Under the pieces are notes generated by a model. It was not told the origin of the DNA. It made no database searches and worked only from the letters and a program-made list of their open reading frames with translations. From Nostoc cf. commune SO-36 (GTDB taxonomy: Bacteria; Cyanobacteriota; Cyanobacteriia; Cyanobacteriales; Nostocaceae), in contig NZ_AP025732.1 in NCBI RefSeq assembly GCF_023734775.1, positions 1,804,501 to 1,868,500 on the forward strand: a stretch of DNA of 64,000 nt. Direction: 5' to 3'. The position numbers were made by a program, and so were the translations under genes. This document shows positions 32,277 to 46,370 of this stretch, one piece after another (position 1 is the stretch's first letter; each line of letters starts with the position of its first letter).

Positions 32277-32530
32277 TAAGTGTTTACCCAAACACCGGAA
32301 GGTGTTGAGTGCGATAAATTTTTCATTTAGTTGAGCCATAGCAGTTGTGAGCGGCGATGTTTATTCGTTCGCTAGTTTTTCTGACTAATGGTTTGGAATT
32401 GGGATGCGATCGCACTTAACTTATCGGGGTTTAGGAGGGGTGCGATCGCCTTCTAAGCGGATCTAGAACGACTTGCAAATCCTAAGTTTAATCTGACCAA
32501 AATCATCAAAATAATTAGTGGAGTAGAGTG

Positions 32531-35500
32531 ATGGCTGACTTCAATATCGAATTTGCAGAAAAAAATTTAGGTATTATTAAAAGTGTTTTTGATACCCTTA
32601 AAACACCTTTAGGAAATGAAAAATCCGATAAGATAATCAAGGCTATAGATAATGCTAATAGCAAGCTTACAGTTGGGTTAAGAAATGATAAAATTGAGGA
32701 GATACTTAAAGAACTTGATTTTGGGGTTGATGGCGTTGCAGGTAATAATATCTCCGCCGATTTTTCTAGTTTCAAGTTTGGTGAACAATTAAAAACATTT
32801 GGTGAACAATTAAAAACACAAATTAATGGTAAATTGCCATCAGTTTCTGCAAACCTCAATTTAAACTGGTCGTTAAACTCAGATCAAGGTAGTGCAACTT
32901 TAGCTAATTTAAAACTTGGTTCATTACTTGGTCAAAACAGTTTTATTGGTGGAGTACTTTCGAATGTAGAGTTAGCATTAAATCCAGTACGTAAAATTAT
33001 TGATGGATTGACGGAAGACATCCCGTTTATCACAAAAGATATTCCAAATGGTTTGGGTATTTCTAAATCAACCCTAGACTTAGACAGAGATAATTCTGTA
33101 TCGGTTATTGACTTACTTAACTATGCAAATAATAATGTACCAAAACAATTTAAAGAAACATACAAAATTACTGGCTTAGAAGAACTTACTAAACTCATTA
33201 CTGAAGCCCAAAAAATATCAACTTTTACTGAAAAAGTCAAAAAAGCTTCTAATGGTGATATTCCTCTTCCTGGTAGTTTGAAATTTGATACCAAAGAAAA
33301 AAAATTTTTAAGTGATACTCCTTCACAAGGCTCACTACTCCCAAAAGATTTGCAAGATACATTGAGTGGCATATCTAATTTCACATTACCTGTTTTGCAG
33401 ACACAAACCGCCGCTAAATTATTCTTTGGTCAACCTGATGTTTCACTATTTGAATATGAGATGCCAAAAGTTTCGCTAATAACATCTCCAGGCTTTGCAG
33501 AATTTGTAAAAATTCCTATTGTAGTTCCAGCGCTTAAGGTGACTTTTGGCCCAACGATAGGTGGCTCGATAGCCCTTGGTTTTGGATACGATAGTACAGG
33601 ATTTTATATCAAAGATGTTAATGGTACTGGAAAACCTGAACTCGAATTCAAGGGCGAATTTCGTGTCGGAGTAGAACTAGGGGCTGAAGGTATAGCAGAA
33701 ATCCAAGGTGGTGGAAATATTGGTCTTACAGCAGGTTTTTCTATTCCACAAGACAAAGCACGAACTTTTAACTTTACGACAAGTGGATCTGCATACGCTT
33801 ATTTAGATGCCTCAGCAAGCATTGATGCGCTGGGTGCAGCAACTGCCTATTTGGATTTCCAGTTACAAGCGACGGGAGCAGCGACCGACTACTTTAGGAA
33901 AATCACTAAAGATGCAGGTATTTTAGGAGATGGGTTTAAAGTTCTTGATAAAGGTGTTAAGAAATTAACATCATTCTTCAAGAAAAATAAACCAAAAGCT
34001 CCTTCGGCCATACTATTCAATGTTGAAAGTCCACGCGTGACATTATGGGAGTTCGGTGGTTCAAATAAAAGTGGCAGTGGTGAACCCACACAGCCGATTC
34101 TAGCAGCGCTTTCTGGAGATGTTTTATTCCTAAATATTGGAACTCGTTCTGGAGAGCGTAAAGTAGGAAACATTACTGATGGCAGCGAAACTTTTAAAGT
34201 CACACAAACTGATACCCAACTTCTAGTCTCTGCGTTTGGACTTGAACAAGCTTACCCAATTTCTGACCAAAACAAAATCAAAATTATTGCTGATGGCGGT
34301 TTGGGCAACGATATTATCACCATTGATACAAGTATCTCAGCAAATCTAAAAGGTGGTAAAGGAAACGACAAACTATACGGTAGTTCGATTAACGATATTC
34401 TCTACGGTGAGGCTGGCGATGATGAGCTAGAAGGTGGTGATGGCATCGACCAACTATACGGGGGTACAGACAATGACACTCTCAGTGGCGGTGCAGGAAA
34501 TGACAAACTCTTTGGTGAAGGTGGGAATGATATCCTCTATGGCGAAGCTGGCAATGACGAGCTAGAAGGTGGTGATGGCATCGACAAACTCTACGGGGGT
34601 ATAGACAATGACCGTCTTTATGGCGGTGCGGGAAATGACAAACTCTTCGGTGAAGACGGGAGGGATCTCCTTCTCGGTGATGCTGGCGATGACGAGCTAG
34701 TAGGCGGTGCTGACGCTGATACCCTATACGGCGGTTCTGACACTGACACTCTATACGGCGGTGCTGACGATGATAAGCTGTTAGGTGAAGCAGGCAATGA
34801 CTTTATTGACGGTGCTACTGAAATCGATACCGTTAGCTACGACAATTCTCCCAGTAGTGTAGTTGTAAATATTGATGAAGCACAGAACTACCAAAATCCC
34901 GGCGGAACTTTCCACACAACCATAGTTACTACCAGCCTCATACCTACCGACACAGAACCAAACTTTACGATCGCAGCAGGCACAGCTAAAGACGGCTTTG
35001 GCACTACAGATACCCTACGAAATCTAGAAAATATCATCGGCTCTGCATTTGATGATGTTCTAATTGGCAACAGCCTAAATAACCGCATTTCCGGCTTAGT
35101 CGGCAATGACCTGTTAGTTGGCAATGCTGGCAATGACTCCCTTGACGGAGGCGATGGCATTGATACTGTTAGTTATCGCCGCGATCCTAGCCAAGTCATA
35201 GTTAACTTAGAGCAAAACTACGCTAAAGACGGCTTTGGTGGCACTGACCTAATCTACGGTGAAGCAGGCGACGACTGGCTCGATGGTGGCACAGGAAGCG
35301 ATCGCCTTTACGGTGGAGATGGCAACGACGAACTTTACGGTCAAGCTGATGAAGACCTCCTCAAAGGTGAAGCTGGCAATGACAACCTGAATGGAGGAGA
35401 CGGCAATGATCAACTCTACGGTCAAGACGGCAGAGACACCTTAAATGGCGATGCTGGCAATGACTATCTCGAAGGCGGCACAGGCGATGACCTCCTTGAT

Positions 35501-37489
35501 GGTGGCAATGGCAATGACCAAGCTTTATGGTCAAGAAGGCGATGACTATCTCGAGGTGGCACAGGCGATGACCTCCTTGATGGTGGCATAGGCGAGACTA
35601 CCTCAATGGAGGAGACGGGGACGATCAACTTTATGGTCAGGCCGATAAAGATTACCCTAAATGGCGGGTTGGGTAATGACCTCCTAGATGGAGGTGATAA
35701 TAATGACAGACTTTATGGCGACGAAGGCAACGATCGCCTCTACGGCCAAGTCGGTGAAGACACCCTGAATGGCGGGTTGGGCAATGACCTCCTAGATGGA
35801 GGTGATAATAATGACCGACTTTATGGCGACGACGGTAACGATCAACTTTACGGTCAAGCTGGTGATGATAACCTCGAAGGTGGAGCCGGAAATGACGCTC
35901 TCTACGGAGGTACTGGTATAGATACCCTTTTAGGGCAAGCTGGTGATGACTACCTCGATGGTGGAACGGGCGATGACCTACTCAATGGCAACGAAGGTAG
36001 CGATCGCCTTTACGGTCAAGCTGGTGACGACCTACTTAACGGCAACACTGGCGATGACTACCTTGATGGTGGGTTAGACAATGACGAACTCAATGGTAAT
36101 GAAGGTAACGATCGCCTCTACGGTCAGCAAGGCTACGATATCCTAGATGGTGGCACTGGCGCTGACTTCCTGGATGGCGGTACTGAAGATGACTATCTCT
36201 ATGGCAGAGATGGTAGCGATCGCCTTTACGGTCAAGGTGGTCAGGACTATCTTGATGGTGGCAATGACGATGACCGCCTTGAAGGGGGTACGGGTGATGA
36301 CCCACTCTTCGGGCAGCAAGGGCGTGACTACCTCGATGGCGGCATCGGCGAGGACTTCCTTTATGGGGGTGATGATGCTGATAAGCTGCTAGGGCAGACT
36401 GGCAATGACTACTTAGATGGTGGCTCTGGTGACGATCAATTAGATGGTGGCAACGGCAACGACCAACTATATGGTCGAGACGGCAACGACATCCTTGATG
36501 GCAATGCTGGTAATGATTACCTTGAAGGTGGAAACGGTGATGACCAACTGATTGGTGGTATAGGTAATGATTACCTTTACGGTCAAGATGGTAACGACAC
36601 CCTCAATGGCGGTGCTGATAATGACAACATATATGGTGGAGTCGGAGATGACAATCTCTTGGGAGGCGATGGCAGCGATCTGCTCTCTGGTCAAGAAGGG
36701 AACGACATTCTTGATGCCGATGCTGGCGATGACTACCTAGAAGGTGGGTTAGGCAATGACCAACTCATAGCTGGATTCGGCAACGACCAACTCTACGGTG
36801 GTGGCGGCAACGACATTCTTGATGGTCGTGCTGATAATGATTATCTAGAAGGTGGATTGGACGATGACCAACTCATAGGCGGCGACGGTGACGACCAACT
36901 CTTTGGTCAAGAAGGTAACGACACTCTTGCTGGAGGCAGTGGTAATGATAATCTTCAGGGTGGCGACGATGCCGATATTCTGCAAGGGCAGGACGGAGAT
37001 GATTATCTCTTTGGTAATGACGGTGACGATCAACTCTACGGCGGTGCTGGTAACAACTCACTAGAGGGTGGTGCTGGCAACGACCTCCTCTACGCCGATA
37101 TCCCGCAGCAAGATGGAGATAATTATCTCTACACTAATAACGATGAGGAGCCGATCTACAACAGGGGTGGCAACGACTATCTTACAGGTGGCGGTGACAA
37201 TATCTTGAATGGTGGAACAGGTGAAGATACATTGTATGGCGGTAGCGGTCGTGATATGTTTGTGCTGGCGAGCGAGTCTGGAAGTGACACTATTTTCAAC
37301 TTTACAGTCGGTAGCGATTATCTAGGTCTATTGAATGATCTGACCTTTGAACAGATCACTATTACCCAAGGCATTGGCACTGATACCAGCAATACTCTAG
37401 TCAGTAAACAGGATGGTGAACTCTTAGCCACACTAATTGGGGTACAAGCCAACACCCTTAGTCTGTGGGATTTCACTAATTTAGGGTAA
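32531..37489 (+). pseudogene. Giant RTX calcium-binding repeat protein, indel cluster at 35.5-35.65 kb
   Basis: Start ATG 32531 (GGAG upstream; a GTG one codon earlier is also open). The N-terminal 590 or so residues match no named enzyme. They include a dockerin/EF-hand-like loop (LDLDRDNSVSVIDLLNY, about 178-194) and a long strand-rich region. From about residue 600 several dozen GGxGxDxLx nonapeptides follow, which bind calcium and fold as a beta-roll after type I secretion. The C-terminus (GRDMFVLASESGSDTIFNFT ... LWDFTNLG) fits a type I export signal. Four single-base indels at about 35522, 35553, 35595 and 35652 (net zero) break the repeat region into two frames; about 1650 residues if repaired. 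Confidence 0.85.
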
Positions 37490-37680: not shown

Positions 37681-37890
37681 TTAATCTTGCCAATTTTGTT
37701 TTGATCTAGTAAAGATTTCATCTATGGTCTGATCTTGATATATTGTTCTGGAAATTTCTACATAATCAGTAGGGTTTTTGTGTAACAATATTAAGAACCT
37801 CATTGCTGCTGCTGAACCAAGAGATTTATATAGGGCATTTATGCCTTTTACTCTAATTTCTGTATCATCCATAATATTATTTATTTCCAT
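37681..37890 (-). CDS. Small protein paired with a PIN gene (toxin-antitoxin-like)
   Basis: About 69 residues from ATG 37890 (MEINNIMDDTEIRVKGINAL); ATG 37872 is an alternative start. The longer frame to 37917 uses TTG. The sequence ALYKSLGSAAAMRFLILLHK, then DYVEISRTIYQDQTIDEIF, is helical and soluble. Its start overlaps the stop of the broken PIN-domain gene upstream, the usual layout of toxin-antitoxin or related two-gene units. Antitoxin function is inferred from position only. Confidence 0.6.
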   Translation of the reverse strand: MEINNIMDDTEIRVKGINALYKSLGSAAAMRFLILLHKNPTDYVEISRTIYQDQTIDEIFTRSKQNWQD

Positions 37891-38521
37891 AATTTTCATT
37901 ATTCCTAATATAGTCAATTGGGTTCATAATTGCTATTTCTAACTCCAACTTCTGAGCTTGTTTCCTGAGACTGTCATCACAAGTTAAGAAAAAATCAGCT
38001 TGAATATAAACAGAACAGGCTAAGTGTAGAGCATCTTGCTCGATAGATTAGCTAACTGCTGGAACATACGGGCTTGTTCTGCTATTTCAGTTTTGGAACT
38101 ACCTTTATTTACACAAACTCACCATGCCCAAAACTGAATACTTACGATCAACAAAGGGGCATAATTCAGTTTCATCTTGGTGGATAAAAGACCGCACCAG
38201 GGAGCATCCCAAATGTGTAAAAACATATTTTGTCATTGCGAGCGTAATTAAATGAAGCGTTCGCGGAGCGTCTCTAAGAGTTGCAATCGCAGCCGCTAGA
38301 CTTTGCGATTGCTTCATTCCGCTTCGCTCCATTCGCAATGACTAGTTCTAATTGGTAAATTTGCAAAATTGGGATGCTCCCACCACACCAGACTTACTTG
38401 TTCTGTTTGAGCTTGAGTAAATATTTCTTGACAGGCTACAGCCTCCATTTGAATTTCTAACTTGTCTTGGATCGTCAAAGCCACGTTGAAAGCAGTTATA
38501 GTCTAGATAAATCAGAGTCAT
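37881..38521 (-). pseudogene. PIN-domain ribonuclease-like gene, interrupted by a 182-bp MITE and by indels
   Basis: From ATG 38521: MTLIYLDYNCFQRGFDDPRQ with the first PIN acidic residue. An extra A near 38455 shifts the frame to IQMEAVACQEIFTQAQTEQV, then SLVW. Here the element at 38200-38381 is inserted. Removing it and one target copy continues the same frame as SFIHQDETELCPFVDRKYSV. Further indels follow near 38115 and 38045. Then comes the conserved PIN C-terminus QDALHLACSVYIQADFFLTC, with the remaining acidic residues (CDDS), ending in YGNK at 37881. The gene is clearly dead: one insertion plus at least three indels. Confidence 0.8.
38200..38381. mobile_element. 182-bp MITE, copy 1, inside the PIN gene
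   Basis: Ends GGGAGCATCCCAA and, inverted, GGGAGCATCCCAATTTT; the GGGAGCATCCCAA arms are perfect. Flanks ACCGCACCA (38191-38199) and ACCACACCA (38382-38390) form a 9-bp target repeat with one mismatch. It differs from the inverse copy at 46114-46295 at a single base (38250 region, T against G). No coding capacity. Confidence 0.9.
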
Positions 38522-45995: not shown

Positions 45996-46370
45996 CTATG
46001 TTTTAACTCGTTCCCATAGACTTAGTTGATGGCGTTTGGCAATTTCCACAGAAGCTACTACTGCTTGGCTTACTTTTGGTTTGAGATAGCGCTGACCAAA
46101 TGCGATCGCTACTGGGAGCATCCCAATTTTGCAAATTTACCAATTAGAACTAGTCATTGCGAATGGAGCGAAGCGGAATGAAGCAATCGCAAAGTCTAGC
46201 GGCTGCGATTGCAACTCTTAGAGACGCTCCGCGAACGCTTCATTTCATTACGCTCGCAATGACAAAATATGTTTTTACACATTTGGGATGCTCCCTCGCT
46301 ACTTGGGGATTTTCGGCTGATTTACAATCACTTCAGTCGATGTTCACGGTTGTATTAGAACAACTTAGAA
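45996..46370 (-). pseudogene. Gene remnant interrupted by a 182-bp MITE
   Basis: On the minus strand, the DNA left after removing the element and one target copy reads KSAENPQVAIAFGQRYLKPK, then VSQAVVASVEIAKRHQLSLW and ERVKT, to TAG at 45996. The sense composition and continuous frame across the rebuilt site suggest a real former gene 3' end. Upstream, a TGA interrupts the frame and no start is found, so only the last 50 or so residues remain. Family not recognised. Confidence 0.5.
46114..46295. mobile_element. 182-bp MITE, copy 2
   Basis: Inverse copy of the element at 38200-38381, 181 of 182 bases the same. It is flanked by a perfect 8-bp direct repeat TCGCTACT (46106-46113 and 46296-46303). 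Ends GGGAGCATCCCAA. No gene inside; a short frame that follows it in both copies is a by-product. Confidence 0.92.

Follow-up and report, generated by a model that had tools for sequence, protein, structure and literature searches.

A 182-bp MITE in a PIN-domain pseudogene of Nostoc cf. commune SO-36 with ends matching those of an ISKra4-family IS

The question raised by this locus is how a sequence too short for a transposase came to lie within a PIN-domain gene, and what moved it there. The window considered here is the whole 64,000-nucleotide stretch of Nostoc cf. commune SO-36 DNA that was analysed. A first-pass annotation of it had described positions 38200..38381 as a 182-bp MITE with perfect inverted ends and a 9-bp flanking target duplication, and each part of that description was borne out, with the qualification that the two copies of the duplication now differ by one base.

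The element and its copies

The MITE (38200..38381, plus strand, with what we call an A-type core) was delimited by its ends, its copies and empty sites. Its left 13-bp terminal inverted repeat, GGGAGCATCCCAA, lies at 38200..38212 (plus strand) and the right repeat at 38369..38381 (minus strand) is the exact reverse complement of the left, the ends being perfect over 13 bp. Flanking these are the left copy of the target duplication, ACCGCACCA, at 38191..38199 and the right copy, ACCACACCA, at 38382..38390 (both plus strand), which form a 9-bp repeat with one mismatch. The end sequence was matched 8 times in the window at up to two mismatches, compared with 1.09 expected, and none of 100 shuffles reached 8. 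Only ORFs shorter than 80 aa overlap the MITE. Its strand is strongly self-complementary, with a DNA fold of −41.3 kcal/mol, compared with −21.3 on average for shuffles (z = −6.8). The short length, inverted ends, multiple copies, target duplication and empty sites (below) identify it as a non-autonomous MITE, a further member of an already known type of element.

A second 182-bp copy was located in the window at 46114..46295 (minus strand), flanked by the 8-bp target duplication TCGCTACT (46106..46113, plus strand; other copy 46296-46303) and separated from the first by one substitution and no indel. In the whole genome (five contigs, 7.41 Mb in total) near-full copies number at least 11 (L001-L011), each of which spans the 182-bp query in full or falls short by one base at most; this is a lower bound from the scoring of 40 of 141 first-look candidates. 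Near-full copies come in sizes of about 161, 182 and 204 bp. In the one pair compared, the 182-bp form carries 21 bp extra in mid-element relative to the 161-bp form, and otherwise only the last base differs. This size difference recalls the very small cyanobacterial repeats reportedly described by Elhai. The exact 13-mer end occurs 32 times in the genome, against a single occurrence of the reversed control pattern. A search for the ends in other genomes, along the lines that the earlier annotation had proposed, found the exact 13-mer in 50 of 53 genus genomes; single copies in several of these may be chance, their counts being no higher than those of the reversed control.

The ends are also found around other cores. 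B-type elements of the same genome (L031-L035) are 160 bp long and have ends in common with the A-type, with visibly different cores. One B-type MITE (L040:501-938) has another repeat nested inside it, the ends of which resemble GCTACGGTGTACACACAAGT. A third MITE type of the SO-36 genome (L044-L046) has ends GGGAGCATCCCAC/T... and GGGTGCATCCCA... and duplications of 8-9 bp. In three own copies (L034, L036 and L041) the outermost base of one end is altered, AGGAGC standing for GGGAGC. The strict hairpin pattern of the core was found at 8 places in the genome, all within elements with these or related ends. Among 19 looser partial core matches that were fetched (L012-L030), 8 lay between paired ends and 11 did not. 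Core-like sequence therefore also occurs without these ends, since 10 of the 11 unpaired loci (L013, L018-L022, L025, L027, L029 and L030) match the MITE core. Elsewhere, the 24-base end pattern had no match in viral contigs, and a plasmid search returned four records matching part of the core only, over at most 42% of the query. A literature search for GGGAGCATCCC found nothing related, and a family with these ends may already be described in ISfinder.

The empty site and the interrupted gene

The two flanks of the MITE were searched separately and 11 loci were compared (L092-L102), of which five fail to reach across the insertion site and six align on both sides. The informative six comprise three same-genus genomes (L092, L093 and L094), Nostoc sp. 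FACHB-973 (L098), Dolichospermum planctonicum NIES-80 (L099) and the metagenome-assembled Anabaena sp. CRKS33 (L102). The MITE is absent from all of them. In four, the alignments of the two flanks share exactly 9 bases and the sequence at the site is ACCACACCA; the right copy of the duplication therefore retains the state of the empty site, and the left copy, ACCGCACCA, is the changed, derived one. In L099 and L102 the insertion site itself has a different sequence. A single frame reads across the site in all six relatives (e.g. SLVWSFMHQDETE in L092 and L093), and five have the PIN frame open over 152 codons from stop to stop. In L093 the open frame likewise crosses the site, and it stops prematurely after 127 codons. 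An intact PIN allele lacking the MITE, which the first-pass annotation had suggested looking for, is thus present in relatives. Its statement that the PIN frame is restored across the joint stands in the sense that the relatives read through.

That the 182 bp might instead belong natively to the PIN gene, or have arisen by local expansion of a hairpin with no insertion, is so improbable that it can be set aside: it is refuted by the six informative relatives, whose gene lacks these bases, and the same 182-bp unit sits at other sites in the genome with duplications of its own. These two results, a gene without the 182 bp and further genomic copies with these ends, also remove both grounds on which the annotation would have given up the MITE. 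Empty sites were furthermore sought for 14 own left flanks in order to polarise mismatched duplications, and a clean one was obtained for L008 alone, where the flanks overlap by 9 bases at the empty site in genome G047 and the duplication is perfect.

The interrupted PIN-domain pseudogene extends over 37877..38521 (minus strand), with limits mapped from L092 and an approximate 3' limit. Insertion added 191 bases, a number not divisible by three, and so also shifts the PIN frame. As the annotation had noted, further indels lie elsewhere in the gene: four single-base indels over about 425 bp distinguish it from all six relatives, three in the left piece and one in the right. The protein of the intact relative L092 matches the PIN family of Pfam (PF01850) at 26.5 bits (cut-off 23.6), and no family of PIN-protein kind was found in NCBIfam. 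This match and the empty site in six of six relatives support insertion into a PIN-domain gene; the description of the gene as 'toxin-like' may hold, its sole basis being this match, just above the cut-off, in L092. The partner ORF downstream (37681..37917, minus strand) is still open, as had been claimed, and its stretch 37681-37890 is free of indels relative to the six relatives; in another set of six loci, one from a Chloroflexota MAG (L103) matched the partner weakly and was left out. On the question of an antitoxin, no Pfam or NCBIfam family matched the partner. At the indel rate of the PIN pieces the 182-bp MITE would have gained about 1.7 indels, and none was seen relative to its sister copy, a result not decisive on the order of insertion and gene decay. 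The host gene is in itself one more pseudogene carrying an insertion. Elsewhere in the window, two adjacent long plus-strand ORFs (32528-35545 and 35606-37489) with glycine- and aspartate-rich repeats resemble one protein split in two.

Target duplications at 117 sites

Duplications were surveyed at a sample of the listed end pairs from 16 genomes. The survey gave 119 rows, from which two nested inner-end pairs (L162 at 163 bp and L086 at 199 bp) were removed to leave 117 sites. Of these, 108 are flanked by a duplication in which no more than one base mismatches: 86 are of 8 bp (71 perfect, 15 with one mismatch), 21 of 9 bp (15 perfect, 6 with one mismatch) and one, with one mismatch, of 7 bp. 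The length is thus 8 or 9 bp at 107 of the 108, a mix that fits the value published for the Mutator superfamily. Five of the remaining nine sites have two mismatches and four have three or more. Together with the empty sites and the matching IS described below, these more than 100 duplications make for a well-anchored MITE family. Two genomes appear to record recent bursts: duplications are perfect at 19 of 21 fetched sites in G039, where 15 of 21 elements have at least one other copy identical to them in the part that aligns, and at 11 of 12 sites in G052, or 30 of 33 in the two genomes combined.

The single mismatch at 38191..38199 could be taken as a record of a base mismatch already present in the target, with each strand passed to one flank, such that elements of this family would insert at mismatched sites. 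Some of the data lean this way, as a single mismatch, in every case a transition, occurs in 5 of the 11 own A-type copies, compared with 14 of 85 sites in other genomes (Fisher p = 0.04; 8 of 23 when all own sites are taken, p = 0.08), a comparison that was chosen after the data had been seen. Over all sites together, however, transitions (12) and transversions (10) both occur and positions vary, and the recent bursts are mostly perfect. Mismatches also tend to increase with divergence from the nearest copy, at 2/460, 2/194, 6/406 and 11/676 duplication bases in order of rising divergence (bins covering 106 of the 108 sites, two having no comparable neighbour). Statistically the trend is weak (p = 0.055 by permutation; p = 0.09 for identical versus >3% divergent copies) and points, weakly, toward ordinary mutation after insertion. 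Mismatch-targeted insertion is unsupported rather than excluded, and we consider it very improbable.

A matching IS and the probable source of the transposase

Full ISs with the ends of the MITE, which the earlier annotation had named as a check, were located by reading end pairs at larger spacing in genus genomes. The check was largely answered: the strain's own genome yielded no suitably spaced end pair at up to one mismatch, and a same-genus genome, G020, holds an IS that matches at both ends. This IS (L214:1264-3035) is 1772 bp long and belongs to the ISKra4 family; its transposase frame of 325 codons scores 273.6 bits against the NCBIfam ISKra4 cut-off of 205, and a second ORF is also present. 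Its flanks, acaacaac/acaacaac, form an 8-bp duplication, which is a simple AAC-like repeat and so is weak evidence when taken alone. The two ends of the IS diverge from each other after base 13. The first 24 bp of the MITE are identical to one end (E = 3e-8) and its last 22 bp to the other, corresponding end (E = 4e-7; both from a comparison of three elements with three ISs). The MITE interior shows no similarity to the IS, and matches that do not pair end with end have E values of at least 1.2. A second IS, in G007 (1785 bp, perfect 8-bp duplication, transposase 275.3 bits), shares 13-16 bases per end with the MITE.

Published elements provide a frame for these findings. ISKra4, ISMich2 and ISAzba1 are placed in the Mutator superfamily, with duplications of 8 or 9 bp, in the account of PMC3942029, which also describes the ISMich2 transposase as split over two ORFs joinable by a −1 frameshift. 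ISKra4-family ISs resemble the MITE in ends beginning GGGAGCATCCCAA... and in duplications of 8 or 9 bp; the MITE differs in having no transposase and in being unlike the G020 IS beyond the ends. ISMic1, an ISKra4-like element by annotation on a plasmid of Allocoleopsis franciscana PCC 7113, is 74% identical to the G007 IS over all 1785 bp. The ISs with these ends probably belong to an ISMich2-like group of the ISKra4 family, because the transposase frame of a related IS resident in SO-36 (below) is split and the annotated ISMic1 gene measures 1079 nt.

With respect to MITEs, the type II elements of Anabaena sp. 90 (PMC3542288; type II MITEs are reviewed in PMC10969869) are, as portrayed there, likewise short and multicopy, with IS similarity confined to the terminal repeats, and some disrupt ORFs. 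They differ in that no IS sharing their ends is reported in that genome, as far as that account goes, whereas for the 182-bp MITE a matching IS was identified in relatives. Since its IS similarity is limited to the terminal repeats, the 182-bp MITE is itself of type II; ends in common with an ISKra4-family IS that has a duplication of its own, and a duplication of 8 or 9 bp, suggest that it is ISKra4-derived. Nezha, an active cyanobacterial MITE, is alike as a mobile cyanobacterial MITE, the likeness being one of description alone.

We propose that the MITE works through its two ends. A DDE transposase of the ISKra4 family (Mutator superfamily), made by an IS of roughly 1.77 kb with the same end pair, would have acted in trans, binding the two ends and inserting the 182-bp unit. 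The PIN-domain gene would have been cut with a 9-bp stagger, and filling in of the stagger would have produced the flanking duplication. A G020-type IS lineage may have supplied the transposase, having been transiently present in the ancestry of the strain and later lost. We put the probability of this reading, namely movement in trans by the transposase of an IS with the same ends, a 9-bp stagger and subsequent loss of that IS, at about 0.9. It is directly supported by what was seen of the ends and copies, by the duplication and the empty site in relatives, and by a relative's IS that has both ends along with an 8-bp duplication of its own; against it stand a genome without the matching IS, the 9 of 117 sites that lack a duplication of at most one mismatch, and the weakness of the G020 duplication.

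A different source of transposase lies closer at hand. The genome carries a cousin IS of the ISKra4 family (L195-L200), 1172 bp long, in six full-length copies and two length variants, and this resident could have moved the MITE by acting on partly matching ends. It looks recent, with five of the six full-length copies identical, the sixth bearing one substitution, and perfect 8-bp duplications in 6 of 8 copies; its transposase is of the same family as that of the G007 IS (55% identical), and both its ends begin GGGAGCATCC. The end match stops at 10 bases, however, compared with 24 and 22 for the G020 IS, and G039 and G052 hold many MITE copies yet gave no hit with the G007 transposase at E≤1e-60, in a search that did detect the cousin in the SO-36 genome. 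Mobilisation by the resident IS is for these reasons unlikely. The transposase in the cousin copy that was read seems to be divided between two overlapping frames, an arrangement (with a −1 frameshift) that has been published for the ISMich2 group.

Mobilisation in trans by an IS with the same ends leaves a puzzle in the recent bursts in genomes without a matching IS. Transposases at least 79% identical to the G007 type were found in 6 of the 53 genus genomes (G007, G030, G020, G014, G008 and G009), and G023 has a short fragment 81% identical to the G007 transposase. The MITE-rich and nearly complete G046 and G052 have no transposase at or above that 79% identity. The absence of the matching transposase from G039 and G052 is suggestive only, as weaker matches fall outside those listed and drafts may collapse an IS. 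For MITE-bearing genomes of this kind a shared, transient transposase would be the simpler reading. We advance only tentatively, with the odds somewhat against it, the broader idea that MITEs with these ends burst in genomes without a matching IS, served by ISKra4-family transposases that are transient, horizontally arriving or partly matched. If true, a genus-wide transposase pool would explain many type II MITEs with no parent in their own genome. With MITE and IS paired, it becomes possible to test whether a single ISKra4-family transposase serves elements of different strains and species.

Other end-paired elements were rejected as parent ISs. The G009 element has no duplication and a short transposase frame (232 codons), that of G010 has neither a duplication nor a transposase frame, and in the two G014 copies a transposase frame of 325 codons is present but a clean duplication is missing. 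Lastly, a 979-bp element of G010 (L052:685-1663), in which the transposase is absent and no duplication was seen, retains the second ORF of the IS (about 167 codons) between the same ends.
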